NCBI RefSeq assembly: GCF_024753565.1
Contig: NZ_JANTPT010000006.1
Location: 1 to 32,959, forward strand
DNA from: Mechercharimyces sp. CAU 1602
GTDB lineage: Bacteria; Bacillota; Bacilli; Thermoactinomycetales; JANTPT01
DNA length: 32,959 nt
Direction of reading: 5' to 3'
Positions 1,626 to 32,959 of this stretch are shown in pieces. The notes under the pieces were generated by a model. That model ran no database searches, had not been told where the DNA came from, and saw only the letters and a program-made list of their open reading frames with translations. Numbering within the stretch: the stretch's first letter is position 1; every line of letters begins with the position of its first letter. Made by a program: the position numbers and the translations under genes.

Positions 1626-1781
1626 AACTAATACTCTCCCTCTGCGGGGAAACGACAAATTATAACCAATAAATGCTGTTGCATACCCTGCCTCAGGAAT
1701 GGTATCATAAAAGCAAAAGCAGAATCAAAATGTAAAAGGGCATGAAGATGACCTTTTACTACAACAGTAAATACCTTGTCT

Positions 1782-15432: not shown

Positions 15433-15905
15433 CTCGTACTCACTTCCTTCCATTCAGCATTTATCAAGTCATGATAGGAAACTTGAAAGTCAATCCCGAA
15501 TCCAGCTACTTTCCATTGATCTTTTTCGTAATGAAGAACAACCTGTATCATGTAGTCGTTATCTGCTTGATGCACATAGAATGTTTTTTTTGTATCGGAT
15601 TGCTCGTGAAAAGTAGACGGAGCTAATTCTATGGAAGAACGTGTTGTCGGATTTCTCTTTGCTGCATTGATCTGAACTTCAATAGTTTCTTTAGCTAACC
15701 CTGATTTGGCTTTATCCGTCAACAATGAATATGCCTTCTCTGAATCACTGTTAAGATAAACGGCTTCATACAGATCTAAAACGACCTGTTCTCTATCATC
15801 ATTCTTCAAGGAAAGCTGAAAAATGATGATAGAACCTAAAATGAAAGTGATTGATAACAGAATACTGAGCACAGGGGAAGCTTTTAAAATTTTTATCAAG
15901 TTCAC
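15429..15905 (-). CDS. Membrane-anchored NTF2-like protein
   Basis: A 158-residue protein with one N-terminal transmembrane helix (about residues 10-32). The extracellular domain begins with a helix typical of NTF2-like folds (LDLYEAVYLNSDSEKAYSLL) and ends in beta strands (MIQVVLHYEKDQWKVAGFGI). VirB8-type conjugation proteins share this layout, so a second VirB8-like part beside the TcpC-like protein is a reasonable inference. The GTG start overlaps the VirB4 stop (GTGTGA). Confidence 0.6.
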   Translation of the reverse strand: MNLIKILKASPVLSILLSITFILGSIIIFQLSLKNDDREQVVLDLYEAVYLNSDSEKAYSLLTDKAKSGLAKETIEVQINAAKRNPTTRSSIELAPSTFHEQSDTKKTFYVHQADNDYMIQVVLHYEKDQWKVAGFGIDFQVSYHDLINAEWKEVSTR

Positions 15906-18556
15906 ACTCCCACCTCCTGAAGATGATGGTAACGCAGGTGACCATAAGTAGCTTCTCTTTTGTCATTTGCCGTTTTATCGGTTCGGAATGCCTGGTACAA
16001 TACTGGATCAATTTCATCCAACCGAAATGTTACCAAGCCCACCCGCCCTTTAAAGTCACGTAACAAAAAGCGCCCTGAGTGCATAATCTCTTTATTTTGT
16101 AACAACTCTAGTATGTCAGACGAAGGAGTGATGCCAAGAAAGCGACACGCTTTTTTTGCTTCTACTTCATCATCGACTCGATAGACAAAGCGATTTCCTA
16201 AGTTAGAGCGGACTTCAGATGCTTGATCTTCATCATCGGTCGAATTATCTAAAACTAAGTCTCTCATATTGTGCGTACAGAGTTGAACCTTATTGTTCAT
16301 GCTCCGGCCAGTTCTCAGAAGCACGCGAATCATAGAAGCAATCTCGGGTTCAGCCGTAAAATCATACAATTCATCGAATAGCACCGTGCGAAACTCTGCT
16401 TTTGCATCTACAAACTCTCTACAAACATCGGCAATTCCCATAAAAACGGCTTTACGAAGCCTGTTAGTCGGATCTTCTTCGCTTTGCTGCTGTAACCCTC
16501 TAACCTGTAAGATAGTTACATGTTTTGAGTAGTCAATCGGTTCCTCGTTCCCTTCACCGATTAATAGTTGGGCTAATGACGAGTTGGCATGGTAACGCAA
16601 ATCAGCTAATGCTTTAGCTACTTCTCTTTCGGCAGCTTGCGTAACATGATCCAAGTCAGGAAACTCTTCAAAACGGATTTTTTTATTTAGGAACCCTTCC
16701 ATCACTTCGATAACACGAGTCATACACGGTTGATTGTTTGTTAATACTCCTTCTGGTATCAACTTCCTTTTTTCAGGATTAATAACCATGTCAATTCCAT
16801 AGCCAATCACTTTTCCAGCCCACGTATCAGATGATGTTTTTGTCAAGTACCACATGATCCGCTTGGCACTATTAATTGCTTTGATGTCTTCTTGATAATC
16901 TTTTACGCGCAAGAGTGGATCTAGCTTTCCCTTATCACTTGACCCTTCTCGCAAAGTTACGATATTCACTTTTCCCTTTAGATACGGAATTTCAAATGGC
17001 CATGCCCATCGCTCATTCTTGGGATCAAAAATGAGAGCTTTTCCCCCCCTTTTAACTTCTTCGATAACCATGTAATTAGCGAGCATAGATTTCCCTGTAC
17101 CAGGAGGACCAAAATTTATACTCGAATGTGTAGCAGACTTTAGAGGATCTCTAGTAGCTACAAGGGGATCATTTAGGACGGGTACCTGATCATTCAAACC
17201 CGTGTAACCAATCAAATATCCCGTTTGATCACCCAACTGAATGCCACCGAGAGGATGTAAAGCTGCCAACCACTGACTCGTTAATTTCAAATTGTAGAGA
17301 TGACCCAATGCTTTAGAAGGAACAGCTGGAAGTGTATGATAAAACAATTGCTTTTGAATTTGCTTTGGAATGATGATCTTGTAATCACCAAGTGTTTCAA
17401 CAACCTTTTCCCTTCTCTCCATAACCTGGCTCTTTGTCTCTCCCCACACACAGAGAATAATCTGAGTCCGAAACATAGGATACTCTTTTTCACTAAAATC
17501 ATAGATCAGTGCTTCTGAATCCTGTAGTTGTTTATTAGTGTTGTAACCGACTTCCTTACCTCGATTTACATCAGACTGTCCTTTGGATCGTGTAAAACGC
17601 CGAGCACGACTCACTTGCCCTACTGTGTATTCCCAGGATTGAGGCACAAATTGAACAGAAATTTCAACTGGAAAATCAAATATTTGTTGGACTATCTTAA
17701 ACAAACCCGTTTCATGCGGATAATAAACAGTTCCGCCTGGCTTCTGCTTCACCACCATAAATGAAAAATATCCTTCTTTAGTCCCATGAGCAGTTTCCTT
17801 TTCAAATCGCAACATGCCTTTATTCCCTGGATCAAGTTCTACATCAGCAAAATCAGGAATGATCTCATCCGGTGAACAAGTTATCAACTCTACTGCTCCT
17901 TCTTCCTCACTCTCGTGATATATCAACTCATTTTCCTGTTGCGGTTTATCTGGTTCCATTCCTCTCGTTGCAGTCCGCTCCAAAAGCCAACTTACTTCTT
18001 CATAGCTCAATCGCTTAATGTTAAAATAAGTTTTTAAGGTATTAAATGTTTTCTGTTCATCTATTAGAAAGCGATCCCACTGACTTTTTGGAAGAGTGAA
18101 TGGCTGACCGCCCAATTTAGATTCCATCTTTCTCAATGGATTTCTGAAGTTTTCCAAAAATAGATTGAGAGCATCCTTCCATGGATGGCCTAAAATTTCT
18201 TTTACAGATAGTGCTAGAAAGAGCCTATACTGATAGGGAACAGAAAGAATATGATCCCGTTGCTTAATAACAGATTCTTCATACGCAGATCGCAAATTAA
18301 AGGGAACATACTCATCATCTACTCGAAGATTTGTTTCAGGATCAAAGCGGGTTGGAACTTGAATGAAAGTCCCTGCTCTCTTAAGCTTTGCTAATGTCAC
18401 TTCAACTTCTGCCAATCGTTGTAAATCATCCTCATCAGTTGTAAAGTCGGAATGATCTTGTATAACTTCATACAATGCGATTGCCTCAGGCTTATTAAAA
18501 ACAACTGAAGATACAACTAAGTTTTCCGCCCTCATGACGTAAGGAATATTTTTCAT
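15902..18556 (-). CDS. VirB4-type conjugation ATPase
   Basis: An 884-residue cytoplasmic ATPase that powers assembly and substrate passage of the type IV secretion system. Walker A is GPPGTGKSM (about residues 482-490), followed by LIFDPKNERW; Walker B is TVLFDELYDF (about 722-731). The long N-terminal part is usual for VirB4/TcpF proteins. AAAGGAG lies seven bases before the ATG. It overlaps the TcpE-like gene by four bases and is the largest gene of the operon. Confidence 0.9.
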   Translation of the reverse strand: MKNIPYVMRAENLVVSSVVFNKPEAIALYEVIQDHSDFTTDEDDLQRLAEVEVTLAKLKRAGTFIQVPTRFDPETNLRVDDEYVPFNLRSAYEESVIKQRDHILSVPYQYRLFLALSVKEILGHPWKDALNLFLENFRNPLRKMESKLGGQPFTLPKSQWDRFLIDEQKTFNTLKTYFNIKRLSYEEVSWLLERTATRGMEPDKPQQENELIYHESEEEGAVELITCSPDEIIPDFADVELDPGNKGMLRFEKETAHGTKEGYFSFMVVKQKPGGTVYYPHETGLFKIVQQIFDFPVEISVQFVPQSWEYTVGQVSRARRFTRSKGQSDVNRGKEVGYNTNKQLQDSEALIYDFSEKEYPMFRTQIILCVWGETKSQVMERREKVVETLGDYKIIIPKQIQKQLFYHTLPAVPSKALGHLYNLKLTSQWLAALHPLGGIQLGDQTGYLIGYTGLNDQVPVLNDPLVATRDPLKSATHSSINFGPPGTGKSMLANYMVIEEVKRGGKALIFDPKNERWAWPFEIPYLKGKVNIVTLREGSSDKGKLDPLLRVKDYQEDIKAINSAKRIMWYLTKTSSDTWAGKVIGYGIDMVINPEKRKLIPEGVLTNNQPCMTRVIEVMEGFLNKKIRFEEFPDLDHVTQAAEREVAKALADLRYHANSSLAQLLIGEGNEEPIDYSKHVTILQVRGLQQQSEEDPTNRLRKAVFMGIADVCREFVDAKAEFRTVLFDELYDFTAEPEIASMIRVLLRTGRSMNNKVQLCTHNMRDLVLDNSTDDEDQASEVRSNLGNRFVYRVDDEVEAKKACRFLGITPSSDILELLQNKEIMHSGRFLLRDFKGRVGLVTFRLDEIDPVLYQAFRTDKTANDKREATYGHLRYHHLQEVGV

Positions 18557-19181: not shown

Positions 19182-20042
19182 CTATTCTTCCTCCCTTTCA
19201 TAGTCATATGGAATGTCAGGATGAATTTTTATTAAGCCCCATTTTTCTCCTTCTCTTCTTAATATCAACTCATATTTTTGAATCGTTGTTGCCCCATTGA
19301 TTTCCATGATCGCTTCAGCGTTTGCCTTCACATCCCCATTTTCTTTACCCAAGAGGTCTAAGCTTTTTAAGCGATTGTATTTGGCTTCCCACAATGGCAA
19401 TCTAGACTTTCCGTCTGCAAAATATTGCGCTAGATCACTTGCTTGCCCCGACGTATATTGTCGAAAAAACGAATCTAGAAATAGCTGGATCTTCTCTTTC
19501 TCTTTTACTGTCTCTCCACTTTCTTCTTTCGTTTCAGGAACTTTTGGAGCACTTGGCTTGGGAACAAAAGTAGGGATATCATATACCCCGTATTGTCCTG
19601 CTGCCGCTGCCACGACAGGAACAGATAAATAAACCGTTTTTCTCCTAGCCTCTTTTCCCTTCCCTTCCTCAATAAGTCCTTTTATCAACACACTCACAGT
19701 CGTTTTACTCGTATGCACAGGTGCCCACGCCTCTGTCCCCAAAACATTCGGCTTTTCTATCGTGGTTAATGCGTCACTCGGAATCTCAAAACCTTTCGCA
19801 GTATATTGCTGAGCTTTCTCCAAATCATGCATAAGCCAGTAGTATGCAAAGTCTTCCGCGAATTTCGCCGCTCCATAGGCAGAATCCACTTTGTACTCCA
19901 CCGTTTTCTCTTCTACCATCGTCCCTTGCACATCGTCCGGCCCCAATAACTTATAAATTGATAAACCAGCCAACACAACTAAAGAACCGATCAGAATCCA
20001 CGATCCCAATCGAGCAACCCATATTCTTTTATTTGTCCTCAT
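19182..20042 (-). CDS. TcpC/VirB8-like conjugation protein
   Basis: A 286-residue protein with an N-terminal transmembrane helix (about residues 9-29) and two extracellular NTF2-like domains separated by a Pro/Glu-rich linker (PKPSAPKVPETKEESGETVK). This is the layout of TcpC of pCW3 and of Orf13 of Tn916. I chose the ATG at 20042, seven bases after GAGGGGG. It overlaps the sortase gene by 14 bases and abuts the TcpD-like gene. Confidence 0.75.
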   Translation of the reverse strand: MRTNKRIWVARLGSWILIGSLVVLAGLSIYKLLGPDDVQGTMVEEKTVEYKVDSAYGAAKFAEDFAYYWLMHDLEKAQQYTAKGFEIPSDALTTIEKPNVLGTEAWAPVHTSKTTVSVLIKGLIEEGKGKEARRKTVYLSVPVVAAAAGQYGVYDIPTFVPKPSAPKVPETKEESGETVKEKEKIQLFLDSFFRQYTSGQASDLAQYFADGKSRLPLWEAKYNRLKSLDLLGKENGDVKANAEAIMEINGATTIQKYELILRREGEKWGLIKIHPDIPYDYEREEE

Positions 20043-20799
20043 CTTCATACCCCCTCACTTCGATAAATTCAGATTTGATCACATATCGTTTTGTAGTGTA
20101 TCCCAGCTGATCCAAGGGATAACAGGTGTAAAGGTGCATCGTCGCACGATTGGTTTGAGAAAGAACATCTGAATCATTCATATCAGTCACCCAGGTTTTC
20201 TTAACCCGATAAACGATTTTTCCTTGCGTGACCTCAATAATAATATCATCGCCCACTTTTATTTCCCCTGCTCTTTTAAGAGACGTATTATTGTGACCCG
20301 CTAATACAGCATTACCTCTGTCACCTGGAAGGGAAAGAGAAGAATGAACACCAATCCCTCTTTCTAGATCCTCTTCAGCTGTTCCTAATATGACAGGGAC
20401 CTTCAATCCAATTCTAGGAATAAGTAATGTACCTATCTTTTGTGAAAGACTCGGATTTTCCCACTGAATAAAATCAGAGCGCCCTTCTTTTGACTTAGAA
20501 TTTTGCAAGACTGGAGAAGGTGGATTTGAAATGAGTTTCATTTTTCCTTCTACTTTACCCTCATCACCTTTTATAAGAGTGGGCACCTCCACAAGCGCCC
20601 ACTCTTCTTCTATAGCATCCTTATTTTTGGTCTCGATTTTTTTCTCTATATCTCGCGTCTCTATCATTCCATTATTCCACTTCTCAGCCCTTGCCCGATC
20701 TTTACTGAAATCAGTATATAGAATGCTCCCCATTCTAAAACCCTCAATCACCATGATCAGCCCTAACATAAAAAACAGAAATGAAAGGAATCTTTTCAT
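20029..20799 (-). CDS. Sortase encoded within the transfer operon
   Basis: A 256-residue membrane-bound transpeptidase. An N-terminal helix (about residues 3-20) anchors it, and the sortase barrel lies at about 110-250. Catalytic residues are visible: His in LAGHNNT, Cys in LYTCYP, Arg in TKRYVI. It probably belongs to the class D/E side, without the C-terminal helix of pilin sortases. The neighbouring gene encodes a protein with a sortase-type tail, so the two most likely work as a pair. Start codon ATG lies three bases after the upstream stop. Confidence 0.85.
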   Translation of the reverse strand: MKRFLSFLFFMLGLIMVIEGFRMGSILYTDFSKDRARAEKWNNGMIETRDIEKKIETKNKDAIEEEWALVEVPTLIKGDEGKVEGKMKLISNPPSPVLQNSKSKEGRSDFIQWENPSLSQKIGTLLIPRIGLKVPVILGTAEEDLERGIGVHSSLSLPGDRGNAVLAGHNNTSLKRAGEIKVGDDIIIEVTQGKIVYRVKKTWVTDMNDSDVLSQTNRATMHLYTCYPLDQLGYTTKRYVIKSEFIEVRGYEDEDK

Positions 20800-20802
20800 C
20801 TT

Positions 20803-21498
20803 TTAGAAAACCCTTCGGAAACGAATCAATAAAGTCGATCCCGACCCAATGAGTCCAATCATCATTGAAGCTAAAGGAATTGGATTCCAACCTGTTTCAG
20901 CCATAGTTTCTACTTCGCCATCTGACTGAGTTTGACTTGAACCATTATTTTTTGCTATTTCACCTGACTGTGAATCCGACTGTGACTCTGCTTGTGGCTC
21001 TGCTTGTGACTCTGCTTGTGACTCTGACTGTGACTCTGCTTGTGGCTCTGCTTGTGGCTCTGCTTGTGACTCTGCTTGTGGCTCTGCTTGTGGCTCTGCT
21101 TGTGGCTCTGCTTGTGACTCTGCTTGTGGCTCTGACTGTGGCTCTGCTTGTGGCTCTGACTGTGGCTCTGCTTGTGGCTCTGCTTGTGGCTCTGACTGTG
21201 GCTCGGTCTGTGGCTCTGCTTGTGGCTCTGACTGTGGCTCTGCTTGTGGCTCTGACTGTGGCTCGGTCTGTGGCTCTGCTTGTGACTCTGACTGTGGCTC
21301 TGACTGTGGCTCGGTCTGTGGCTCTGCTTGTGGCTCTGACTGTGGCTCTGCTTGTGACTCTGACTGTGGCTCGGTCTGTGGGGTTTGTTGTTGCTCTAGT
21401 GGAACTTCCCCACTTGGATTAGCCGACACAGCCCCGAAAGTAGTCATAGAAGCAAAAACCGCTAGAGAAGCTATCGTTACAGCATCCTTCCTTTTCAC
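20803..21498 (-). CDS. Cell-wall-anchored repeat-stalk surface protein
   Basis: A 231-residue secreted protein, first gene of the transfer operon. The signal peptide (about residues 1-26) ends GAVSA. A stalk of about 34 tetrapeptides of the form (A/S/T)E(P/S)Q runs from about residue 42 to 177. The end is a sorting signal: MAETG, a hydrophobic helix (PLASMMIGLIGSGSTLLI), and a basic tail RFRR. MAETG departs from LPxTG and resembles LAxTG-type signals. GTG start eight bases after GGGAGG. Surface proteins with Pro-Glu-rich stalks are known next to transfer genes, such as PrgC of pCF10, and may aid cell contact. Confidence 0.8.
   Translation of the reverse strand: MKRKDAVTIASLAVFASMTTFGAVSANPSGEVPLEQQQTPQTEPQSESQAEPQSEPQAEPQTEPQSEPQSESQAEPQTEPQSEPQAEPQSEPQAEPQTEPQSEPQAEPQAEPQSEPQAEPQSEPQAESQAEPQAEPQAEPQAESQAEPQAEPQAESQSESQAESQAEPQAESQSDSQSGEIAKNNGSSQTQSDGEVETMAETGWNPIPLASMMIGLIGSGSTLLIRFRRVF
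20968..21375 (-). repeat. 12-bp minisatellite encoding the (A/S/T)E(P/S)Q stalk
   Basis: About 34 imperfect 12-bp units in tandem, all in frame. Since the unit is a multiple of three, copy changes alter stalk length without breaking the frame. Confidence 0.9.
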
Positions 21499-22549: not shown

Positions 22550-23449
22550 CTAAACAAGTTGTAATTCCTTGGCTTTCAAGTTAGCTACTTTGAAAAAACC
22601 TCTGGCATTTGCAAACAGCGGATCAGGAACAACACTTGCATTAGGATATACTTTCCGAACAAAGGGTAACAAGTCACTAGCCTTTCCACCAGCCAATCGA
22701 ATTGGCAATTCAGAAGGCCAATCCATCCCTTTCATGTCTGTACAAACCATTTCTGCAATCTCTTCATTATTCGCAACCGACTTCTCATTGTCTTCGAGCT
22801 TATCACATCCCCAGAATTTCGTTGTTGAGAAGTCAATCTTCACTCTCTTCTTTGATAGATAAACAAGATTGTGCGTTACACTCCCCAAGTCGGAGATTCC
22901 AATTGAATCATCAACTGGATCATCATAATAAGCTCCCATGGCTTCAGGAACCACAAACCCAAAACGTACATCAAAAACTCTCGCTTCAACTTGATTTTTT
23001 TGTTTATAGAATCTGACTTTATACCGCTTATTATCAAACTGCTCTTTCACTTTCGGACCATACTCCTTCAATTTAAGGTACGGGACCCCCGTACCGATCA
23101 CCACAGGCTGATAATCCTTAATTCCCATTCGATACAACATCGTTAAAGCAAAAATCAAATTGTGTTTTGTAGCCTTTTCTTCTGACAACCTTTTATAATC
23201 CGTTCCTCGTTTGGCTGCAAATTCATTAACCTCCCCTACAAAAAACTTCGGGCCATTATTCTCACCATTCTCCAATAGTTCAACAACCAAATCATCATCA
23301 GACTTTAAAGGATCTTCGCCCTGACTCTCATAATAAGAGCTTATCCAACTTGGGAAACTATATGTTTCTAATTGCCCATACTCGCTCATTTTGACACCTT
23401 TCGGCTGGCTCCGCCCAATATCCAACCCAACTACTTCCCAATTACTCAT
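22550..23449 (-). CDS. parM: ParM-like actin ATPase for plasmid segregation
   Basis: A 299-residue actin-like protein that would form filaments to push plasmid copies apart. Phosphate-1 motif GLDIGRSQPKG (about residues 8-18), phosphate-2 motif SDLGSVTHN (about 190-198), and an adenosine-type motif RLAGGKASD (about 255-263) are visible. ATG at 23449 follows GGGGGAG; an ATG five codons earlier overlaps this site. The ParR-like gene follows, and iteron-like repeats lie upstream, the standard type II partition layout. Confidence 0.85.
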   Translation of the reverse strand: MSNWEVVGLDIGRSQPKGVKMSEYGQLETYSFPSWISSYYESQGEDPLKSDDDLVVELLENGENNGPKFFVGEVNEFAAKRGTDYKRLSEEKATKHNLIFALTMLYRMGIKDYQPVVIGTGVPYLKLKEYGPKVKEQFDNKRYKVRFYKQKNQVEARVFDVRFGFVVPEAMGAYYDDPVDDSIGISDLGSVTHNLVYLSKKRVKIDFSTTKFWGCDKLEDNEKSVANNEEIAEMVCTDMKGMDWPSELPIRLAGGKASDLLPFVRKVYPNASVVPDPLFANARGFFKVANLKAKELQLV

Positions 23450-23469
23450 ATATAACTCCCCCATCTCGA

Positions 23470-24446: not shown

Positions 24447-24477
24447 AAAAATAGACCTAAGTCTTAGGTCTATTTTT
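24447..24477. terminator. Bidirectional terminator
   Basis: AAAAATAGACCTAAG and its complement pair over 15 bases around one T. T-runs lie on both strands, and the stem overlaps the stop codon of the gene at 24470. Confidence 0.8.
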
Positions 24478-24829
24478 TCAGATACTCACTGATCCATTTA
24501 TTAATCATCTCATTTTTTGACTCAGGAACATACTTAATTGCCTTATCAAATCTCTCCTTCAGAGTCTTGTCCAATCGTAGACCAATCTCAACCCTCTCTT
24601 CTTTAGCTATTCCTGGATTACGCTCCTTAGGAACCTCTTTCGCTCCATTTCTAATTTTCCTCTCCATTTCCTCACAAAACAAGTGGATTTGATATAGCAA
24701 AAATGTCGTTATATCCAAGCCTTTTAATAATAACGATTCCGAAAGAGCATGCTTGTCCCTTTCATGGATCCAGATCATCATCCTAGTTCTCTCAACTTCA
24801 CCTCTAAATCGATCTTTCTTCTCCTTCAC
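24470..24829 (-). CDS. Double ribbon-helix-helix protein
   Basis: A 119-residue protein with two possible ribbon-helix-helix units: RTRMMIWIHERDKHALSESL onwards (about residues 12-50) and VEIGLRLDKTLKERFDKAIK with SKNEMINKWISEYL (about 80-118). A tandem arrangement would bind DNA asymmetrically or as a pseudo-tetramer. I prefer the GTG at 24829, after GAGGTGAT; an ATG ten codons earlier (24859) is the alternative. It lies between the MerR-like gene and the structured region at 25003, so it may act on that region. Confidence 0.55.
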   Translation of the reverse strand: MKEKKDRFRGEVERTRMMIWIHERDKHALSESLLLKGLDITTFLLYQIHLFCEEMERKIRNGAKEVPKERNPGIAKEERVEIGLRLDKTLKERFDKAIKYVPESKNEMINKWISEYLKK

Positions 24830-24859
24830 AAAGATCACCTCTCTTCCACCTCCTCTCAT

Positions 24860-25281
24860 TGTACCCTTTTTAATAGATTGTGAACACGATTTAATGCACT
24901 GTAAATCTTAAGAGACCCTAGAGAGGCCATATGCCTTTTAGAACTCCTTACACAGCATCTCAGTTGACTCAAGAGGCATTGATAGATACAGAAGCCTTCC
25001 ATATTCTTAGATTCCTTGGAGGCACGCCGCAGGCATTCTTTTCAATCCTCCGCAGCACACGGAGGTTTTACCCTCCGCCTAATCTACCAACCTTTTCACG
25101 CTAAAAACAACGAGGTCACGGGTGCTCTTTCCACCCGTGACTCCCTTCCTCGAAGACGCGCGCGAAGGGTCTGACCCCGTAAATACAGAGAATATGATAG
25201 TCTCTAATCTCTTGATTCATTAAAAAATGAATCCTATAGTATACGTTTTATAGATACGTATACTATAGAAACGTACATTTC
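24860..25281. other. Short copy of the structured origin-like module
   Basis: No gene is visible. From 25003 this stretch repeats, in the same order, elements of 27313-28190. First is a 60-bp similar block (25004-25065) beginning TTCTTAGATTCCTTG. Next is hairpin GTCACGGGT/ACCCGTGAC (25115-25141), followed by CTCCCTTCCTCGAAG and a GCGCGCG run. Last is a palindrome pair ATAGTATACGT/ACGTATACTAT (about 25235-25265) joined to one iteron TATAGAAACGTACATT (25264-25279). The left arm of the second hairpin lacks seven bases present in the long copy. Confidence 0.75.
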
Positions 25282-25740
25282 TTAAGACCAATTCAGCAAC
25301 TCTGCCTCACTTTTTAATAAAGATTCTACCTCTAACACAATATCCGTGAACTTATCACACCCTTTATACATCGTCTCCTCGTCCCATTCTTCGGTCGTCT
25401 TAGCGACCTTTTTAGTGTAAAACACTGTATACGACTCTGATCTCTCGTCATTGATGACGCAAATAATATAGTATCCATCACTAGCTTTCACCAGAAAAAA
25501 GAGTACTTCTTTGACCCAATTAGGCTGTATTCGCATAGTAACAAGGGTTTCATTTAGCTTGGTGCTTTTTCCCCATTTACTTAACCCCTGAATAATCATC
25601 TCTTGATAATAACGTGCTTCTTTTTCTGTTACACAGGGAGCCTCTTCCTTTTGATTGCGCTGGATTTCTTCTACCAAATCAGGGTTATCCTTTAATGTCT
25701 TTAAAATTGCACGGAATAATTTATCTTCGGCTGTATTCAT
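25282..25740 (-). CDS. Unknown soluble protein
   Basis: A 152-residue protein with a helical N-terminus and central beta strands (WVKEVLFFLVKASDGYYIIC). No membrane segment or known motif. AAGGGAG precedes the ATG. It is the last of five leftward genes between the two copies of the structured module, and its stop is two bases from the short copy's iteron. Confidence 0.55.
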   Translation of the reverse strand: MNTAEDKLFRAILKTLKDNPDLVEEIQRNQKEEAPCVTEKEARYYQEMIIQGLSKWGKSTKLNETLVTMRIQPNWVKEVLFFLVKASDGYYIICVINDERSESYTVFYTKKVAKTTEEWDEETMYKGCDKFTDIVLEVESLLKSEAELLNWS

Positions 25741-25901
25741 ATACTCATCTCCCTTATCAAAAATTTATTTCCCATTTCTTCAGAAACCGCAGGTAATCCA
25801 TGTTGATGAAACACCTCTATAAGAGAGGTCATTACGAACCTTTTTTTGTTGTACATGTAGCAAAACACTCCTTTATGTTAAAATGATGGTGAGTATTTTT
25901 T

Positions 25902-26099
25902 TCAAGTGCGGGTTACCAGTGGACGCTGGTGAGCCGCCTTTTTTGCGTTGTCTAGGATAGCTTTCTGTTGATCTAGCGTTAGACGCTTCCATTCGTTGTA
26001 CTTCATTGCAAAACGGGGGCGAGGCATGGTCTCAGGTTGTATTGTCTGGAGCCATTCTTTCGGCCCCCGTTCTACATGATGATAAAACTCGTTTCTCAT
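25902..26099 (-). CDS. Unknown 65-residue basic protein
   Basis: Basic, with Trp and Pro residues (RGPKEWLQTIQPETMPRPRF). Its ATG overlaps the stop of the previous gene as ATGA, so the pair is translationally coupled. Function unknown. Confidence 0.5.
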   Translation of the reverse strand: MRNEFYHHVERGPKEWLQTIQPETMPRPRFAMKYNEWKRLTLDQQKAILDNAKKAAHQRPLVTRT

Positions 26100-26284
26100 T
26101 GGTTTCCCTCCTTAAATTGATGCAAATTGATGTAGACCATTAGCTCAGCTAATTCATATGCTTCATGCGGTGATTTCCCACGTTCCATAGCATCTAAATA
26201 TTGCTCTTCATAGTAATGACCAATGGCTTGCTCGTTGTAACCTTCGAGATGTTGAATAGCAAATCCGAAACCCATGTTAATCAC
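26096..26284 (-). CDS. Unknown 62-residue acidic protein
   Basis: Mostly helical, rich in Glu and Tyr (EEQYLDAMERGKSPHEAYEL). Excellent ribosome site AAAGGAGGTGATT before the ATG. A 36-bp palindrome lies 19 bases upstream of the start codon. Coupled by ATGA overlap to the next gene. Confidence 0.55.
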   Translation of the reverse strand: MINMGFGFAIQHLEGYNEQAIGHYYEEQYLDAMERGKSPHEAYELAELMVYINLHQFKEGNQ

Positions 26285-26302
26285 CTCCTTTCACCTTTAC
26301 CA

Positions 26303-26338
26303 CATCATAGTTATGTACATATGTACATAACTATGATG
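26303..26338. promoter_or_regulatory. 36-bp perfect palindrome, operator candidate 1
   Basis: The centre is TATGTACATATGTACATA; the palindrome extends 18 bases to each side as CATCATAGT and onward. The central 28 bases are identical to the element at 26829-26856. It lies between the 146-residue gene's stop and the 62-residue gene's ribosome site. It has no -10 as good as the second copy's. Confidence 0.75.
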
Positions 26339-26350
26339 CGGTTTTTCACC

Positions 26351-26791
26351 TTACACACCTGCAAGTTTCCTTTTCGCAATCCCCATTAGCTTTTCAAGTA
26401 GCGTTTTACTAAACAAACTATAATCAAACGGTGTATCCTCTTCCCCTTCCATTCGCTTTAGTTCCCCTATCTGCTTCTCAGTCAATGTAGTTTCAACACC
26501 TAAGTCCCAGAAATGAATGCATTGATAACTTTCATCAAAAACATTTTCAAAGACAACCTCGCACCTTTTAAAATCGACCACAACTATTCTCGCCTTCGAT
26601 CCGTGGACTGATGTAAACACATCTTTTTCTAGAAGATAAGCGTCTTCCTCTTCCTCTTCCTCTTCAAGTTCAAATTTCATGTGACGATCTGGATTAGTGA
26701 CATAATCATCATGGTCATAGTTGCAATCAAAACACCAGCCCTCATAATCGACTTTCTCTTTCTCCTTACCGCACATACAACACGTTACCAT
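26351..26791 (-). CDS. Unknown protein with N-terminal zinc ribbon
   Basis: A 146-residue protein: CCMC and CFDC (about residues 4-7 and 20-23) form a zinc ribbon, then a run of Glu (ELEEEEEEED), then a mixed alpha/beta domain. ATG follows AAAGGGAG. A promoter with a palindrome over its -35 lies directly upstream, so it is probably repressor-controlled. Not recognised. Confidence 0.6.
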   Translation of the reverse strand: MVTCCMCGKEKEKVDYEGWCFDCNYDHDDYVTNPDRHMKFELEEEEEEEDAYLLEKDVFTSVHGSKARIVVVDFKRCEVVFENVFDESYQCIHFWDLGVETTLTEKQIGELKRMEGEEDTPFDYSLFSKTLLEKLMGIAKRKLAGV

Positions 26792-26820
26792 CTAATCATC
26801 TCCCTTTCCTTGTTACCTTT

Positions 26821-26856
26821 ATTATATCATAGTTATGTACATATGTACATAACTAT
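26821..26856 (-). promoter_or_regulatory. Promoter with palindromic operator, copy 2
   Basis: On the minus strand TGTACA (26844-26849) and TATAAT (26821-26826) are 17 bp apart. The -35 lies inside a perfect 28-bp palindrome (26829-26856) with the centre TATGTACATATGTACATA. The same 28 bases occur at 26307-26334. A dimeric repressor shared by both sites is likely. Confidence 0.7.
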
Positions 26857-26877
26857 TTTTAAGTTTTTCTCTTTTCT

Positions 26878-27297
26878 TTACGCCTCAATCATAATCCATT
26901 TTTCGGTAACCAAGGGATCAAACCATTTCAGGGGTAAAGGTTCAGTAAAAGAGACAGGTTGAAAGATATACGAGTAAAAATATCCTTTGTCGTTGCCATC
27001 TGCTTCAACCCAACCAACTTCTTGACTCCATCGACCTAATAAATAAGGGTTTGGGTAAGCGAATATTACCGTTATATCCAAATCAATTTCATTGGGATCA
27101 TCTTCAATTTGTTTCCTACTCCATTTAGAGATCAAAACATCCATTTCACCCTTAGTGGCTTCTTTTGAAATATATTCAAAAACAATTTCCGAACCGCAAC
27201 CGCTATAAGTTTCAACATAAATATCAAGAAGGCTTTCTTGCTCTTCGTCAAGGCTTTGCCCTTCTAAGAGAACAATATACACAAATGGAATACACAT
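26878..27297 (-). CDS. Unknown protein
   Basis: A 139-residue protein with alternating strands and acidic helices (DEEQESLLDIYVETYSGCGS; later LDITVIFAYPNPYLLGRW). No motif recognised. A weak site (AGGGG) precedes the ATG by about ten bases. It starts right at the left edge of the structured non-coding region. Confidence 0.5.
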   Translation of the reverse strand: MCIPFVYIVLLEGQSLDEEQESLLDIYVETYSGCGSEIVFEYISKEATKGEMDVLISKWSRKQIEDDPNEIDLDITVIFAYPNPYLLGRWSQEVGWVEADGNDKGYFYSYIFQPVSFTEPLPLKWFDPLVTEKWIMIEA

Positions 27298-27488
27298 GTT
27301 TTCATTTCCCCTATCTTCTTAGATTCCTTGAGGCGCGCCGCAGGCAATCTTTTCACTTCTCCGAAGCGCACGGAGACCTTGCGGGCGGTTATACTATCCA
27401 AGCCGACGGGAGCCTTGAAGCCCTATCTTCCTGAGTCCCCGTCGGCACCGACGACACAACCAGCCCGCATGGTTCCGTCAAGGGTGGA

Positions 27489-27538
27489 GAAATAAATATT
27501 TTTGATGAAGAGAATACGAAATCAAAAATATTTATTTC
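27489..27538. repeat. 18-bp perfect A/T-rich inverted repeat
   Basis: GAAATAAATATTTTTGAT (27489-27506) is complementary to 27521-27538, with a 14-base loop. Outer arms TCAAGGG and CCCTTGA flank it on both sides. Confidence 0.85.
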
Positions 27539-27730
27539 GGAAAGCGTAGCGTCCCTTGAGCGTCTCCCTATTACCTCCGTCGGTTCTTAATAAATACCAC
27601 GTCACATAAACTTGCTCACTTACCTATTAAATGCCTAGAATCATCTCCGCTCCCTTGTAACTGCACGTTTACTCTCACTTTCTATTACCTCGCTAGCCTC
27701 TCAAGTTCCTCTCATGTAACTACTTAGATA

Positions 27731-27843
27731 CTCCCACGTGACTATTACCTCCTATGCCCATTAGTACCTCTCACTTATCTACTTCGGTTGCTCTCACGTA
27801 ACTACTACCTCCCATGCCCATTAGTACCTCTCACTTATCTACT
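27731..27843. repeat. 60-bp degenerate tandem repeat
   Basis: 27731-27783 and 27791-27843 match at nearly all positions with an exact 60-bp period (core CCCATTAGTACCTCTCACTT). Weaker relatives such as CTCTCATGTAACTACT extend left to about 27640. The strand bias is strong: pyrimidine-rich on the plus strand. Confidence 0.8.
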
Positions 27844-27879
27844 ACCTTCTTTTTAAATACACACATAACATATACATAA

Positions 27880-27997
27880 GCCCCACCCGCGCGCCCCGTC
27901 CCCAACCCTACGTTAGTAAGTTGGCGGTCGAGGAAGGGAGTCACGGGGATTCTTTCCCCCCGTGACTCCCTTCCTCGAAGGGGCGCGCGGGTGGGGC
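27880..27997. repeat. Nested 18-bp and 20-bp inverted repeats
   Basis: The outer arms GCCCCACCCGCGCGCCCC (27880-27897) and 27980-27997 are perfect complements. Within them CGAGGAAGGGAGTCACGGGG (27929-27948) pairs perfectly with 27958-27977 around a 9-base loop ATTCTTTCC. The outer arms and the inner stem are separated by 31 bases on the left and two on the right, so the whole can fold into one long extruded structure. Confidence 0.9.
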
Positions 27998-28093
27998 CGC
28001 TCCTCTAACTATAACAAAACATTGATATATTAGTCTTTTAAAGGTATTATGAAAGAAAGAATAACTAAGGATTAACATTCATATATTAGTTTG

Positions 28094-28187
28094 AATGTAC
28101 GTTTCATAGAAACGTACATTATAGAAACGTACACTAAATAGTATCGAAACGTACATTATAGAAACGTACATTATAGAAACGTACATT
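28094..28187. repeat. 15-bp iterons upstream of the Replic_Relax gene
   Basis: GAAACGTACATT or a near copy occurs at 28109, 28124, 28146, 28161 and 28176 (15-bp spacing with one 22-bp step), with one inverted copy at 28094-28105. The inverted and first direct copies form ATGTACGTTTC-ATA-GAAACGTACAT. A weak plus-strand promoter, TTGAAT (28091-28096) and TACATT, overlaps them, so the protein that binds here may control the gene at 28205. Confidence 0.9.
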
Positions 28188-28204
28188 GTATTGGGGGAAT
28201 TATA

Positions 28205-29137
28205 ATGAACAAATTCAGCAACATCCTTCCAAAATGGGAAATGTCAGACTCGAAGTGGACAATTGAAATGTTATTGGGTATGGAAAAAAATCCTTTTAAA
28301 TTTTCTCTTCAATCGCGGGATTTAGATATACTTCAATTTTTATTGGAGCATCGCTTTCTAACAACCCATCAGATTTCCATTTTACTTTTCCCTGATGGAA
28401 TCCACGGGTTGCGTTCAACACAGAGAAGAATGAAAACTTTGTATAATGTCGGATTAGTCATGAAAGTGCGTCCACGTGATGGAGACCCTGGAAGCAAGCC
28501 AAACATCTTTGGTCTAACCCATCTAGGAAAGGATCTGTTGATTCGAAGTAGCAGAGTTCATTCAGACGAAGCAGCAGCAGTTTTTTATTCGCTTGAGGAA
28601 AACATAATTGAATTTAGTTACATGCTACATGACTTGCATTTAAACGAATTTTGTTTAGAAATATTCAAAGAGGCTAATAATCGCAAGCTGTCTTTTGAAT
28701 GGTTACCTACTAAACTTTGTAGACAACACGTGAAACTCCCCAATGGCAAATACCGTGTGGTCGAGCCGGATGCTATATTTATTTTTACTACAGATCAGGG
28801 ACAGAAGGTTCTCCATGTCGAGTATGAGCGGTCAGCAGATCCAAGACGATTCAGAGAAAAGATTACAAGATGGAAGCTCTATCGCAGGCAGCAAACATGG
28901 AAAGAGAAATACGATACCGAGCCATTCATTTGTGTTGTGGGAGATCGTGAAAGTTGGGAGACAGGAGGAAGGAAAAGAAGAGTTGTTCGTTCAATCGACC
29001 CTTTACGGAAAATCGCATACGGAGAAGCATTTAATAAGATTGCTTTTCTACCTGTCGACGAAGTAGAGGATCAAACATGGAACTGCTTGCCTTACCCCGA
29101 TAATAGCCTTTCACTATGGGATCAGCTTGAATTGTAA
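28205..29137 (+). CDS. Replication-relaxation family protein (Replic_Relax)
   Basis: A 310-residue protein. Residues about 35-95 form a winged helix (DLDILQFLLEHRFLTTHQIS, then RSTQRRMKTLYNVGLV). The C-terminal half has PDAIFIF, then VLHVEYERS and a helix with KITRWKLYRRQQ, an arrangement like a PD-(D/E)xK nuclease core. Replic_Relax proteins are common on Gram-positive plasmids and are thought to act in replication or transfer initiation. ATG follows GGGGGAATTATA. Iterons and long inverted repeats lie directly upstream, so this is the best candidate for the protein that acts on that region. No other relaxase is visible in the window. Confidence 0.7.
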   Translation: MNKFSNILPKWEMSDSKWTIEMLLGMEKNPFKFSLQSRDLDILQFLLEHRFLTTHQISILLFPDGIHGLRSTQRRMKTLYNVGLVMKVRPRDGDPGSKPNIFGLTHLGKDLLIRSSRVHSDEAAAVFYSLEENIIEFSYMLHDLHLNEFCLEIFKEANNRKLSFEWLPTKLCRQHVKLPNGKYRVVEPDAIFIFTTDQGQKVLHVEYERSADPRRFREKITRWKLYRRQQTWKEKYDTEPFICVVGDRESWETGGRKRRVVRSIDPLRKIAYGEAFNKIAFLPVDEVEDQTWNCLPYPDNSLSLWDQLEL

Positions 29138-29166
29138 AAAGAGGACCACTAGGTGGTCCTCTTTTT
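29136..29166. terminator. Bidirectional terminator between convergent genes
   Basis: AAAAAGAGGACCAC and its complement pair over 14 bases around TAG. It ends both the plus-strand gene at 28205 and the minus-strand coupling-protein gene. Confidence 0.9.
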
Positions 29167-32100
29167 ATGCAGATTCATTTTTCGGTTGGCGGAGCTTCTG
29201 GCGAATAATCTCAGGTTGACTCTTAATAGTCTCACCTGCTGCTTTCCTCTCTTGAATTTCCTTGTCTGCTTCCAATAATAATGGTATTGCTTTTTCGTAT
29301 GAAATTCCTATCTTCTCTACTATTTCCTCCACCTTCTGTGGTTTAACAGTTCCAATTTTCGGCCACTCTTTTTTAACGTCACTTTCACTCTTACTTTCTT
29401 CGACCTCATCTTTTGGATCCCATTTTGATTGCAAAAACTTTCTTAGGTTTCGATCCGTTTCTCTAGTAGTTTTCCCATCCATAGCATTCATGAATTCATT
29501 TAAGTATATTTTTGCTTCAAGATATGGAATACCCATATCTTGAATAATCCCTCTTACCTTATTTGCACTCAGGGAACCAATCGCAGGATAAACTTCCTTC
29601 TTATTTTCTTCTTTTACTTCAGTTGTCTCACTATCAATTTGAGAGGAAATTCCTTTTAATTCTCTTATTTTTGTTTCTTTTGGGTTTACTTTTTTAGCAG
29701 TTTCATCTTTCTTATTGTTCACCCCTAGCTTACTTTGCTCTTCAGGGGTTAATTCAGGTATCTTCACTTCATGTAATTGGATATCTTTTCTTTCAGGCCA
29801 CGGATGATGATTTCTCCATCCGGGATTTTCTTTGTCCTTAATCGTTTGAGCGATAAAGGCTTCTTTTACTTCACCGTTTACAGTTAACCTACAAACAGCA
29901 TGGAATCTCTTCATTTGAAGAATATCGTCCGTCCCAATCCGTACTCTGTCTTGGTCCTCATCACGCAAACCAATGAAATTACTGTAAAGTTGAGCAAAAG
30001 ACTTCGCCCAAGCATCTGCTTCATCCATATCATTGTTTCGGAATATAACTTTATGTCCAAATAGCTGTTTGAACACCTTCTGTAAATTCGGATCCTCAAT
30101 GGATGAAAGGCTAAGTGTGGCTCCCGTTGTACGGGCTCCATATTTCCTAGATTCCTGCAAGATTTCCTTGAGAGCATCGTTTGCGTATCCGTGCATCTCG
30201 TCCAAAAATAGATTCACTTGAACCCGTTCTTCTTGAGGAATGTCAGCTTGTGAGGAAATAGCCTGAAATAGAAGACTCATCAGCATATTACACATGAGCA
30301 TACTGGTCTCTTGGCCAACTTCATTCTTACCCGTATACAAGATGATAGCAGCCTTTTCTTCTCTAATGATTTTCCGTAAAGTAAGCGGCGACGGATGACA
30401 GAGAATCTTTTCTACTCGTTCGCTGGCTAAGAGAGTATTGTATTTATTGAGAATCGGAGCCACCTTATTAACGTAAGTGTTATGTGACTCTCTAAGGTTT
30501 GAAAATTGTGTCGTCCAATACTTCTTAATACTGCTACCATCCGGTAGATCATTCATTACGCTCTCTCGAAAATCATCATCGACTAACATATCACGCATGT
30601 GCCGAAAATCAATAACAGGTATGGCACGCTTCCATCGATCATGAGTATCACGAACTTTTCTTAGAGCCAGAAAACTCTGTTGAAGAAAATCCCCTGACTG
30701 ATCCCCGACAGCAGATCTCCCGTAAGCTGTTCTAAACGAAGATAGGAGGTTCCCTGATAAAGTATCTGCCTGAACCCCATCGTCTGCAAGAACGTTTAAT
30801 CCATAATCACTGGGACGAGATAAATCAATCACATAAGTTTTCTTATCAGGAGGAATTCGATCCAAGAAGGCTTCGGCATCACCTCGGTCATGGATCACGA
30901 TCACAGAGGATTGCTCTGGATCTTTTAAAACTGGAGCAGCATAATCCGTCATAGCCTTCGTCTTCCCCGATCCATGGAGACCAATAAACAACATATTTAA
31001 ATATCGATCTATTTCTAGAATAGAAATGGGCTTTCCATTCTCTGCAATCATGAAAGAATCAGCTTTATTGTCAGGAATACCCGTTGGTAGAGGAACACGT
31101 CGAGAAGCAGATCGTTCTAACCCCGATACCCTCAAACGCATAGACGGCAACTGCAACAAAGTAGCAAGATGGAACGAAGATAATTTAACTTTTGGACCTA
31201 ATAAAATCGAAGGCATTGCCGCTTCCATCCACCAGCGCCACCAAAACCGCTTCATTGCGGATCGCAGCAACCAATTAGGAAGTAATTCAGGAATCAATCT
31301 GTTTTCTGACGAAGCCTCGGCCATGGATCCAATAACAGACTGTCTAGCCTCTTTTGATACAGAAACAATCCGAACTTCGCATTTAAATAATCCTTTTCCT
31401 CGATTCTCAAAACTCGCCTTTAGCTCCTTCTGTCGCCCCATACCTAATCCGCTACCCGAATCCCCTTCCTCTTCTTGGTTGTATTTCATTTCGAATTCAT
31501 CATGCAATTTAATCAATTTATTCTGTCTATGAAGTGATAAAGGTGTCATCACAACTTGGAACTTCACATCCTCTTCTATGTTATCCAGCGAAGCAAAGAA
31601 TGCCTCAGATATTGATTTCTGATAGTTTTTTAAGCTCTGCAAAGGATAAATCCAATCTCGCTGTAGACGTAGTTGCAAATACTCTTTCGGCACAGGTTCA
31701 TTTTTTCTCCGCTCGATAGTCTCAAATCGGATATTCTGATACACAGACTGCAAACTACTACATATTTGATCCAAGATCGGTCCCGGTGCTGAAAGATGAA
31801 TATACTTCTGTCCACTTCGTTGTCCTTGTTCCCAAACGAAATGATGAAAGCCTGTAAACCATCCTGTAAGAGGAAATCTTGTAAGAAGCATCCCATTAAC
31901 AGAATCAATAAACTTCGCGACTTCGAACGGATCTGTCGTATCATCCCTACTCAATATGACTTTTCTTGTTTCGATGATCGAATAACGATGCAAGTAAAAA
32001 TAAAATTGAAACCCTACCATCAAAATCCATATAAAGAAAGGAATGGCGAGAAGAACAGCTAACCCAATGAGAATAGTATCCAAATTAATCATAAAGCTTT

Positions 32101-32218
32101 CCCACAAACCAAAAAAAACATAGTTATATTTATTCCAAAACGACCAAAATAACCCGATAACTGCTACTAGTAATACCAATATACCTTCAATTTGACCATT
32201 TTTAGCTGATTTGCTCAT
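29165..32218 (-). CDS. VirD4/TraG-type coupling ATPase
   Basis: A 1017-residue type IV coupling protein that would deliver the DNA-relaxase complex to the transfer channel. Two or three N-terminal transmembrane helices lie at about 12-75. Walker A is GLHGSGKTKAM (about residues 411-421); Walker B is NLFLDEMHGYA (about 668-678). A C-terminal extension carries two similar modules, YPAIGSLSANKVRGI onwards (about 874) and WPKIGTVKPQKVEEI onwards (about 949). The ATG at 32218 follows AAGGAG and overlaps the previous stop as ATGA. It is encoded away from the main transfer operon. Confidence 0.85.
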   Translation of the reverse strand: MSKSAKNGQIEGILVLLVAVIGLFWSFWNKYNYVFFGLWESFMINLDTILIGLAVLLAIPFFIWILMVGFQFYFYLHRYSIIETRKVILSRDDTTDPFEVAKFIDSVNGMLLTRFPLTGWFTGFHHFVWEQGQRSGQKYIHLSAPGPILDQICSSLQSVYQNIRFETIERRKNEPVPKEYLQLRLQRDWIYPLQSLKNYQKSISEAFFASLDNIEEDVKFQVVMTPLSLHRQNKLIKLHDEFEMKYNQEEEGDSGSGLGMGRQKELKASFENRGKGLFKCEVRIVSVSKEARQSVIGSMAEASSENRLIPELLPNWLLRSAMKRFWWRWWMEAAMPSILLGPKVKLSSFHLATLLQLPSMRLRVSGLERSASRRVPLPTGIPDNKADSFMIAENGKPISILEIDRYLNMLFIGLHGSGKTKAMTDYAAPVLKDPEQSSVIVIHDRGDAEAFLDRIPPDKKTYVIDLSRPSDYGLNVLADDGVQADTLSGNLLSSFRTAYGRSAVGDQSGDFLQQSFLALRKVRDTHDRWKRAIPVIDFRHMRDMLVDDDFRESVMNDLPDGSSIKKYWTTQFSNLRESHNTYVNKVAPILNKYNTLLASERVEKILCHPSPLTLRKIIREEKAAIILYTGKNEVGQETSMLMCNMLMSLLFQAISSQADIPQEERVQVNLFLDEMHGYANDALKEILQESRKYGARTTGATLSLSSIEDPNLQKVFKQLFGHKVIFRNNDMDEADAWAKSFAQLYSNFIGLRDEDQDRVRIGTDDILQMKRFHAVCRLTVNGEVKEAFIAQTIKDKENPGWRNHHPWPERKDIQLHEVKIPELTPEEQSKLGVNNKKDETAKKVNPKETKIRELKGISSQIDSETTEVKEENKKEVYPAIGSLSANKVRGIIQDMGIPYLEAKIYLNEFMNAMDGKTTRETDRNLRKFLQSKWDPKDEVEESKSESDVKKEWPKIGTVKPQKVEEIVEKIGISYEKAIPLLLEADKEIQERKAAGETIKSQPEIIRQKLRQPKNESA

Positions 32219-32682
32219 TTCATCATCTCCTTGGGCAATCCGTATTTCATTATCAAACCTGAAACATGAATCAACCAAATATTAGCTGACTTACGAATAT
32301 CTATTGGATGAAAACGTCCTTCAAGTATCCTTTGACGGATACCACGTATCCTCCAAACATTCTCTGCTTCTTGAGTTGTAATCCAAGGAGATCCCCCTAT
32401 CACCCATAAGATAATAGACCCTCTCTGATCCCTAATATAAGGAGAATACTCTTCTACCTCCTGCAATAAAACAAGAAGACACTCAGCCACAGACCTCTTA
32501 ACATCAATCTTCATTTCATCTTTAACCCAAATAACTTCTTTCCATCGAGAATCATTTAAAGAAATCCATAGAGGATCCATTGAATCAATTGAGCACATAG
32601 GAGCCATCATAGTATCTCCATTCAATACAAAAGGACCTACAGCAAATAGTTGGTCTAAATACTGAAAACAATATACCACCAC
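32215..32682 (-). CDS. Unknown protein coupled to the coupling ATPase
   Basis: A 155-residue soluble protein rich in Trp and Ile; segments such as GSIILWVIGGSPWITTQEAE suggest an alpha/beta fold. GTG start after AAAGGAGAAAA. Its stop overlaps the ATG of the coupling-protein gene, so it is probably a partner of that protein. No family recognised. Confidence 0.6.
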   Translation of the reverse strand: MVVYCFQYLDQLFAVGPFVLNGDTMMAPMCSIDSMDPLWISLNDSRWKEVIWVKDEMKIDVKRSVAECLLVLLQEVEEYSPYIRDQRGSIILWVIGGSPWITTQEAENVWRIRGIRQRILEGRFHPIDIRKSANIWLIHVSGLIMKYGLPKEMMK

Positions 32683-32749: not shown

Positions 32750-32959
32750 GCCACCCCCAGCTTCTCCCCCTAAAAGACCTAAAGACTAAAAGCCTCTCTG
32801 TTCCCCTAGTGAATATAAAAAGGGAAGTGGCTTGTTGCCACCCCCAGCTTCTCCCCCTAAAAGACCTAAAGACTAAAAGCCTCTCTGTTCCCCTAGTGAA
32901 TATAAAAAGGGAAGTGGCTTGTTGCCACCCCCAGCTTCTCCCCCTAAAAGACCTAAAGA
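32750..32959. repeat. 87-bp tandem direct repeats, right end
   Basis: Two complete units (32750-32836, 32837-32923) and 36 bases of a third, identical to the units at 1-184. The last 123 bases equal the first 123. The array separates the coupling-protein promoter from the end of the replication gene if the molecule is closed into a circle. Confidence 0.9.

Follow-up and report, generated by a model that had tools for sequence, protein, structure and literature searches.

A nested hairpin upstream of a MOB_C-type relaxase gene as the probable transfer origin of a Mechercharimyces plasmid, with a reduced second copy

Few origins of transfer (oriTs) of the MOB_C type are known, to our knowledge, and those closest to the locus described here are on the enterococcal plasmids pAM373 and pTEF1, both typed as MOB_C. 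Francia and Clewell reportedly described the transfer origins of pAD1 and pAM373 in 2002; pTEF1 is presumably pAD1-like, and we take the stretch compared here to be the mapped oriT of pAM373 and pTEF1, oriT2 being, we assume, its name. Each of the two has an inner stem of 25 bp enclosed by 18-bp outer arms, next to 5.5 copies of a 12-bp direct repeat, and the structure sits between a TraM-recognition (VirD4-like) gene and a replication-relaxation gene; in pAM373, a hypothetical open reading frame (ORF) is annotated over the nested-repeat stretch. Here, we describe a related locus on a contig of Mechercharimyces sp. CAU 1602 (NZ_JANTPT010000006.1; the whole stretch of 32,959 nucleotides is called the window below). 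Two modules, a short one (25001-25279) and a long one (27313-28187), carry related hairpins, and the long one adjoins, directly upstream, the gene for a relaxase of the Replic_Relax family.

The window is like pAM373 and pTEF1 in its MOB_C relaxase family, its two-tier inverted repeat, and the direct repeats alongside. In pAM373 and pTEF1, unlike the window, the inverted repeat stands between the direct repeats and the relaxase gene. A further difference from the oriTs of pAM373 and pAD1 is that the second copy in the window duplicates the first in reduced form and comes with an additional block (block A). The initial annotation knew of no described oriT with such a layout. Nested inverted repeats and about five 12-bp direct repeats are visible beside the MOB_C relaxase gene in pAM373 and pTEF1; therefore, the layout is not undescribed, and that of the window is a variant of it. 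The relaxases of ICEclc and R6K belong to other families than the MOB_C relaxase of the window. Two oriT sites on one element are described for ICEclc and R6K (PMC6414798, PMC5587640), a likeness by description, without sequence comparison. The first of these papers, whose subject is a different element, refers to Francia and Clewell for the inverted repeats of the pAD1 and pAM373 oriTs, and two functional oriTs are reported there for pAD1 (PMC6414798).

The long module and the relaxase gene beside it

We propose that the long module is the oriT of a conjugative MOB_C plasmid of about 32.8 kb, and judged by its sequence this is highly probable. The initial annotation had considered hairpins of a transfer or replication origin, in single-stranded DNA or RNA. 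An oriT with single-strand DNA hairpins is strongly supported because of the adjacent MOB_C relaxase, the conjugation genes of the contig, and a wider hairpin family; the RNA alternative is not favored. The module and the genes next to it are laid out as follows.

27313-27375, plus strand: block A, long copy, with hairpin TCTCCG (27358-27363) / CGGAGA (27371-27376)
27380-27469, plus strand: further two-tier inverted repeat, long copy only, TGCGGGCGGTT / AACCAGCCCGCA around GCCGACGGG / CCCCGTCGGC
27489-27538, plus strand: AT-rich perfect hairpin of 18 bp, long copy only
27670-27843, plus strand: pyrimidine-rich tandem repeat (60-bp unit, 2.9 copies), situated between block A and the nested hairpin
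27880-27897 and 27980-27997, plus strand: 18-bp outer inverted repeat arms, enclosing the core hairpin
27928-27978, plus strand: core hairpin, 21-bp perfect stem TCGAGGAAGGGAGTCACGGGG / CCCCGTGACTCCCTTCCTCGA with a 9-nt loop; proposed relaxase substrate region
28094-28187, plus strand: 15-bp repeats, five units direct and one inverted; proposed site of relaxase binding and autoregulation
28205-29137, plus strand: MOB_C-type relaxase, Replic_Relax (PF13814), with a winged helix and a probable restriction-endonuclease-like domain
29165-32278, minus strand: VirD4/TrwB-type coupling ATPase

What had been recorded as the second hairpin of this copy is only the tip of the 21-bp perfect stem, which is nested in the 18-bp outer arms; this larger structure had been missed. 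None of 300 shuffled sequences gave outer arms as long as those at 27880-27997 (folding z-score, -13.2), and the nested inverted repeat scores above all 30 shuffles. The 15-bp repeats lie 116-128 bp past the end of the core hairpin and stop 17 bp before the relaxase ATG; eight of the nine matches to the ATAGAAACGTACATT family in the whole window (at most 3 mismatches) sit inside the two modules. In the long copy, the 550 bp that separate block A from block B contain the further two-tier inverted repeat, the AT-rich hairpin, and the 60-bp tandem repeats; the first two of these are possibly a single-strand priming origin.

The protein encoded at 28205-29137 matches PF13814 with 72.9 bits (cut-off, 25.3; E 4.7e-20), a family filed under the MOB_C superfamily (PMC5357655). 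A review groups MOB_C relaxases with the PD-(D/E)XK nucleases (PMC12857230). Residues D189 and E206, invariant among eight aligned relaxases, that of pTEF1 included, would fit the conserved acidic residues of a PD-(D/E)XK-type site. Structure comparison with the whole-protein model (predicted local distance difference test [pLDDT], 70.5) found mainly the winged helix (best Z 11.5, root mean square deviation [rmsd] 2.6, 82 residues), so the C-terminal domain was predicted alone. The resulting model, of low confidence (pLDDT 54.2), mostly matched restriction and defense nucleases (best Z 8.8, rmsd 4.0, 149 residues), with the nickase N.BspD6I among them (Z 7.3-7.4). These Z scores are modest and the model is weak, yet the run of related folds appears to agree with the description of the family. 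A sequence search of solved structures gave weak matches only (best E 0.012), and a search by back-translated words found no relatives of the relaxase in the genome contig or viral contig collections. The same genome has a second PF13814 gene, on a 2.15-Mb contig (C1:361309-361752), without a nested repeat nearby.

From the anatomy, the gene content, the conservation of the family, and the covariation reported below, we infer a course of binding, nicking, and transfer. We imagine that the Replic_Relax protein would bind the 15-bp repeats at 28094-28187 and that its putative PD-(D/E)XK domain would nick one strand in or beside the nested hairpin, about 100 bp away, by analogy with TraX of pAD1, which binds five direct repeats about 70 to 120 bp from nic (PMC12857230). 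Opening of the DNA would let the exposed single strand fold into hairpins, which would direct its nicking, termination, or rejoining, and this strand would be handed to the VirD4-like ATPase (29165-32278). The core, TCGAGGAAGGG / CCCTTCCTCGA, would be the sequence-specific part, with the distal and outer arms needing only self-complementarity. The 15-bp repeats probably also autoregulate the relaxase gene.

The core hairpin in other genomes

A search of plasmids with the relaxase led to one record, pDESACI.01 of Desulfosporosinus acidiphilus (30.2% over 77%), which also has a homologue of the coupling-type ATPase (25.1%). In a noncoding stretch beside its relaxase gene stands the same 11+11-nt core with other distal arms, together with outer arms of 18 bp and about 21 arrayed copies of a 15-bp repeat; the locus was reached via the relaxase protein, not via the hairpin. 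All of these parts have their counterparts in the window. The differences are the position of the element, downstream of the relaxase gene, the larger number of repeats, and the single core hairpin in the record, whose feature table does not annotate the element as an oriT.

Searched in the genome contig collection, the core pattern TCGAGGAAGGN{17,47}CCTTCCTCGA gave 98 loci. Thirteen of them have at least 16 contiguous Watson-Crick pairs; the other 85 have fewer and were dropped. Outer arms of at least 12 bp occur at nine of the 13 and at none of the 85 (Fisher 4.5e-10), and a MOB_C ORF lies in the fetched piece at four of the 13 and none of the 85 (Fisher 2.0e-4). Among the matches listed (80 of 98), the named hosts include Conexibacter, Paraconexibacter, Solirubrobacteraceae, other metagenome-assembled genomes (MAGs) of Actinomycetota, and Sulfobacillus. 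Four matches to the pattern in viral contigs, in GC-rich DNA and with at most 11 contiguous pairs, were dropped as chance.

Wider flanks were examined at 17 loci: the 13, two with shorter stems (L218 and L219), the window, and pDESACI.01. Nested outer arms are present at 12 of these, the window included, and absent from five. Among 300 shuffles per locus, none had outer arms as long for 10 of the 12, one for L210, and two for L216, whose arm is 14 bp in one measurement and 10 bp in another whose window skips the hairpin-adjacent bases. The five loci not counted in the 12 are L207, L214, and L217, which have long stems without outer arms, and L218 and L219, whose stems are also shorter; PF13814 is absent from four of their genomes and present in one (G786). 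L207 lies beside leucine/isoleucine biosynthesis genes. Near 7773-7896 of L219 (Ferruginibacter MAG, L065), in a genome without a PF13814 match, there is an array of CCCTTCCTCGACTGCTGTATTTT units with the same core letters.

At seven of the 12 nested-arm loci (the window, L016, L205, L211, L212, L213, and L216), a MOB_C ORF lies within about 1 kb; six of these ORFs match PF13814 itself, and that of L216 matches only a profile built iteratively from the relaxases of pTEF1, pDESACI.01, and the window. At the remaining five (L206, L208, L209, L210, and L215), the stretch fetched contains no MOB_C ORF, and PF13814 is found elsewhere in their genomes. Across these five, 17 nearby ORFs, a subset of those present, were scanned. 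Among them are an integrase at L206, a type I restriction domain at L215, both a Shedu-type protein and a RepB-primase domain at L209, and, at L210, a weak integrase-type match below curated cut-offs; nothing was recognized in the three ORFs scanned at L208. A parallel is offered by the oriT mimics of the staphylococcal pWBG749 family, relaxase-less elements with oriT copies that are mobilized in trans (PMC8136818), which differ in using another relaxase and accessory protein; for the five loci here, mobilization is only putative. As background, PF13814 is found in 32 of 398 genomes of the phylum of the window and in none of 14 control genomes, a sample from another phylum than that of most hosts of the hairpin family.

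Other searches added little. Across 40 sources, a covariance model of the hairpin yielded no additional strong copy. No plasmid matched the whole 4.3-kb region at E up to 1e-5 or the 118-bp nested repeat at E up to 10. Beyond the window itself, the long module gave three short DNA matches in 151 kin genomes (32-72 bases, E 1.5e-5 to 4.6e-5), none of them to the core hairpin or block A. A literature search for the core letters returned, among the matches listed, only papers unrelated by title.

Two further observations concern other PF13814 genes. About 100 bp upstream of one such gene in another genome (L160, 2012-2068, minus strand), the covariance model gave a weak match (18.7 bits, E 0.09) with the core GGAAGGG/CCCTTCC and TTCTTTC in the loop; this hints at a relaxed, wider core and is only a lead. 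Nested repeats beside PF13814 genes at L156 (2005-2190), L158 (2265-2467), and L159 (623-765) are candidate oriTs of other MOB_C branches.

Paired changes and the second copy

The initial annotation described two modules that share three elements in the same order and orientation, and this was borne out. They are diverged copies with three shared blocks: block A (25001-25064 / 27313-27375; 87.5-88% identity), block B (25115-25164 / 27940-27989; 88%), and the repeat block (25242-25277 / 28098-28133; 89%), with whole-genome E-values of 1.7e-14, 1.1e-10, and 8.0e-6 for the three matches. Block A had no relatives in the viral contig collection (two patterns) and, against plasmids (E up to 10), only short matches with E of at least 2 among the matches listed. 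The parts of the short copy are as follows.

25001-25064, plus strand: block A, short copy, with 6-bp hairpin CCTCCG (25047-25052) / CGGAGG (25060-25065)
25115-25141, plus strand: hairpin B, short copy, 9-bp stem
25134-25153, plus strand: repeat-proximal core arm CCCGTGACTCCCTTCCTCGA, 20 nt identical to the long copy; 5' partner partly deleted
25250-25279, plus strand: two 15-bp repeats of the ATAGAAACGTACATT family, one exact and one with 3 mismatches

Both paired changes are present as originally claimed. The first hairpin goes from CCTCCG/CGGAGG in the short copy to TCTCCG/CGGAGA in the long one, and the second from GTCACGGGT (25115) / ACCCGTGAC (25133) to GTCACGGGG (27940) / CCCCGTGAC (27958), with the loop end TCTTTCC unchanged. 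Template-switch correction of quasi-palindromes yields paired changes too. Under random substitution at an equal number of sites, the chance of no broken and at least one compensated pair is 0.011 for block A (7 changes in 47 nt) and 0.007 for block B (6 changes in 50 nt); such a model ignores mutational mechanisms of the template-switch kind and shows nonrandomness, not selection. Hence, of the claim that these changes are the mark of selection on a folded strand, the nonrandomness stands, and the selection does not follow from the two copies, as template switching would give the same result.

The wider family carries the question further. Ten base pairs per stem are fixed by the search pattern and so are uninformative for the loci found with it. 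Pair eleven, which the pattern does not cover, is G-C throughout the 12 hairpins, and the seven that follow are Watson-Crick in every hairpin although the letters vary. The eight distinct distal arm pairs are all canonical; with shuffled 3' arms the mean is 0.59, and none of 1000 shuffles reaches eight. In a MAFFT alignment with 9 distinct rows and 99.3% of cells paired, the covariation score is 0.312 versus 0.093 (0 of 500 shuffles) and at most 0.080 when slid; both-sided changes fall in 17 alignment cells (0 of 500 shuffles), and ten further pair types were reached by 4 of 500. The compensation hinted at by two copies therefore extends across phyla, the arm changes in the 12 hairpins staying complementary. 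One can envision that template-switch repair of quasi-palindromes, rather than selection on the folded strand, made these paired changes and that the hairpins are perhaps only weakly selected. The mechanism is a known one, and all 12 hairpins pair without a flaw over their first 18 stem positions, also where their sequences vary. It does not account for the nested second tier, for the association with MOB_C genes, or for the core held in common with pDESACI.01, and we consider it unlikely.

The short copy lies in the same orientation as the long one and lacks the outer arms and 7 of the 21 bases of the 5' stem arm; its core-to-repeat spacing is comparable (97 bp versus 116 bp). Of an origin kept twice, the presence of a second copy is clear, and the keeping is uncertain, since that copy is reduced. 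In our reading it is a further oriT-like site in reduced form, which either keeps weak activity or is in decay. A serious alternative, to which we would give somewhat less than an even chance, is that it is a functionless duplicate in decay or the scar of a past plasmid fusion and that the long copy alone works. The loss of the outer arms and of part of the 5' stem is what decay would leave, and the covariance model misses this copy. Against decay, both hairpins are still perfectly paired via double changes, the core arm is identical over 20 nt, and two repeats have been retained at a similar spacing; dual oriTs are also known for pAD1, R6K, and ICEclc (PMC6414798, PMC5587640).

The short copy also adjoins the ALP_N actin gene (22550-23464) and the gene for an Arc-like protein (24470-24859), as would befit the partition centromere of an ALP-type actin operon. 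The same blocks stand upstream of the relaxase gene in the long copy, away from the actin gene, and we hold this explanation to be quite improbable.

The transfer origin in its plasmid

Several results weigh against the reading of the modules as oriTs, in whole or in part. In the short copy, the covariance model of the hairpin finds nothing and the large nested inverted repeat, sought there, was not found. TCGAGGAAGGG has no exact match in the record stretches of pAM373 or pTEF1; with at most one mismatch, there is none in pAM373 and, over 50 kb of pTEF1, a single chance-like match that is distant from the oriT stretch, and the covariance model also finds nothing in these plasmids. The five stem pairs with a both-sided change were matched by 23 of 500 shuffles, making this a weak measure of covariation. 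Repeat arrays (12-16 bp, at least 2 copies, at most 130 bp from the outer arms) occur at 7 of the 12 family loci, a count made without a shuffle control. A strong nested repeat (score of at least 25, a limit set after the scores were seen, and above all 30 shuffles) lies within about 1.5 kb at only 5 of 30 PF13814 loci (L143-L172): the window (L144), Desulfosporosinus (L150), and the three with other cores, L156, L158, and L159; another four score just 1 or 2 points above their shuffles. In a second set (L173-L189), it is found at 5 of 17, all already known from the hairpin or Desulfosporosinus. Finally, the relaxase matches phrog_9381, "replication initiation by nicking" (E 7.9e-12).

This last match would suit modules that are replication origins, nicking-type double-strand or single-strand, with the Replic_Relax protein as the nicking initiator; hairpins befit rolling-circle and single-strand origins, and the long region has several further ones. 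Set against this are a separate replication protein (phrog_9432, E 5.5e-125) at 273-1658 beside 87-bp tandem repeats, the coupling-type ATPase gene that adjoins the Replic_Relax gene here and in pDESACI.01, the conjugation genes on the contig, and the five family hairpins without a relaxase ORF in the stretch fetched. We think a replication origin very unlikely.

Even less probable, to our minds, is that the modules act as RNA, as transcription terminators or structured leaders of neighboring genes. The short-copy hairpin does score as a minus-strand terminator downstream of the gene at 25282-25740, and L207, with its biosynthesis genes, resembles such an element. The long hairpin, on the other hand, is not among the terminator-like sites, the family hairpin precedes the relaxase ORF at some loci and follows it at others, terminators are not characterized by outer arms, and there is no Rfam match at curated thresholds.

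For an oriT, the remaining genes form a fitting background. The ends of the 32,959-bp contig are identical over 123 bp, an overlap inside the 87-bp tandem repeat, and therefore the simplest account of the window is a circular plasmid of about 32.8 kb. Its other recognized genes are these.

273-1658, minus strand: plasmid replication protein (Rep), far from both modules
11946-12989, minus strand: protein with transglycosylase SLT and M23 peptidase domains
15902-18556, minus strand: VirB4/TcpF-type conjugation ATPase
19182-20048, minus strand: TcpC-like conjugation protein
20029-20799: sortase
22550-23464: ALP-type actin (ALP_N)
24470-24859, minus strand: Arc-like (ribbon-helix-helix) protein, E 1.6e-5, adjoining the short copy

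The SLT/M23 protein would open the cell wall, and the Arc-like protein is a candidate relaxosome accessory protein or regulator. Neither the Arc-like protein nor the actin protein had a match among plasmids. The 87-bp tandem repeats at 32750-32959 and 1-183, adjoining the Rep gene, are candidate replication iterons. Next to the sortase gene, a gene with long EPQ/SEPQA-type tandem repeats (20803-21498) probably encodes a wall-anchored surface protein. Near-identical palindromes with a ATAGTTATGTACATATGTACATAACTAT core, at 26299-26342 and 26826-26856, stand upstream of small minus-strand genes and are likely operators for one regulator.

As far as our searches of the openly readable literature show, three findings are new: the cross-phylum core hairpin with covarying arms, its occurrence at loci without a nearby relaxase, and the presence on one plasmid of a second, reduced copy repeated in direct orientation. 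A bolder proposal, which we offer as a speculation with the balance clearly against it, is that the core hairpin serves as a transfer address across phyla, recognized by a single branch of MOB_C relaxases. Conjugative plasmids would carry the core, relaxase-less genomic islands (near integrase, Shedu-type, or restriction-like genes) would carry it so as to be mobilized in trans, and the 2 kb of small genes between the directly repeated copies in the window would be a block open to excision or exchange by the relaxase, via recombination of the two origins.

According to the review cited above, no covalent DNA intermediate has been observed for MOB_C relaxases, which use a restriction-endonuclease-type domain (PMC12857230), and this raises the question of how they recognize, cleave, and reseal their site. 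A conserved core with varying, always complementary arms provides a testable definition of the site and a basis for pattern-based oriT searches. Relaxase-less islands in Actinomycetota and Bacillota may ride on MOB_C systems.

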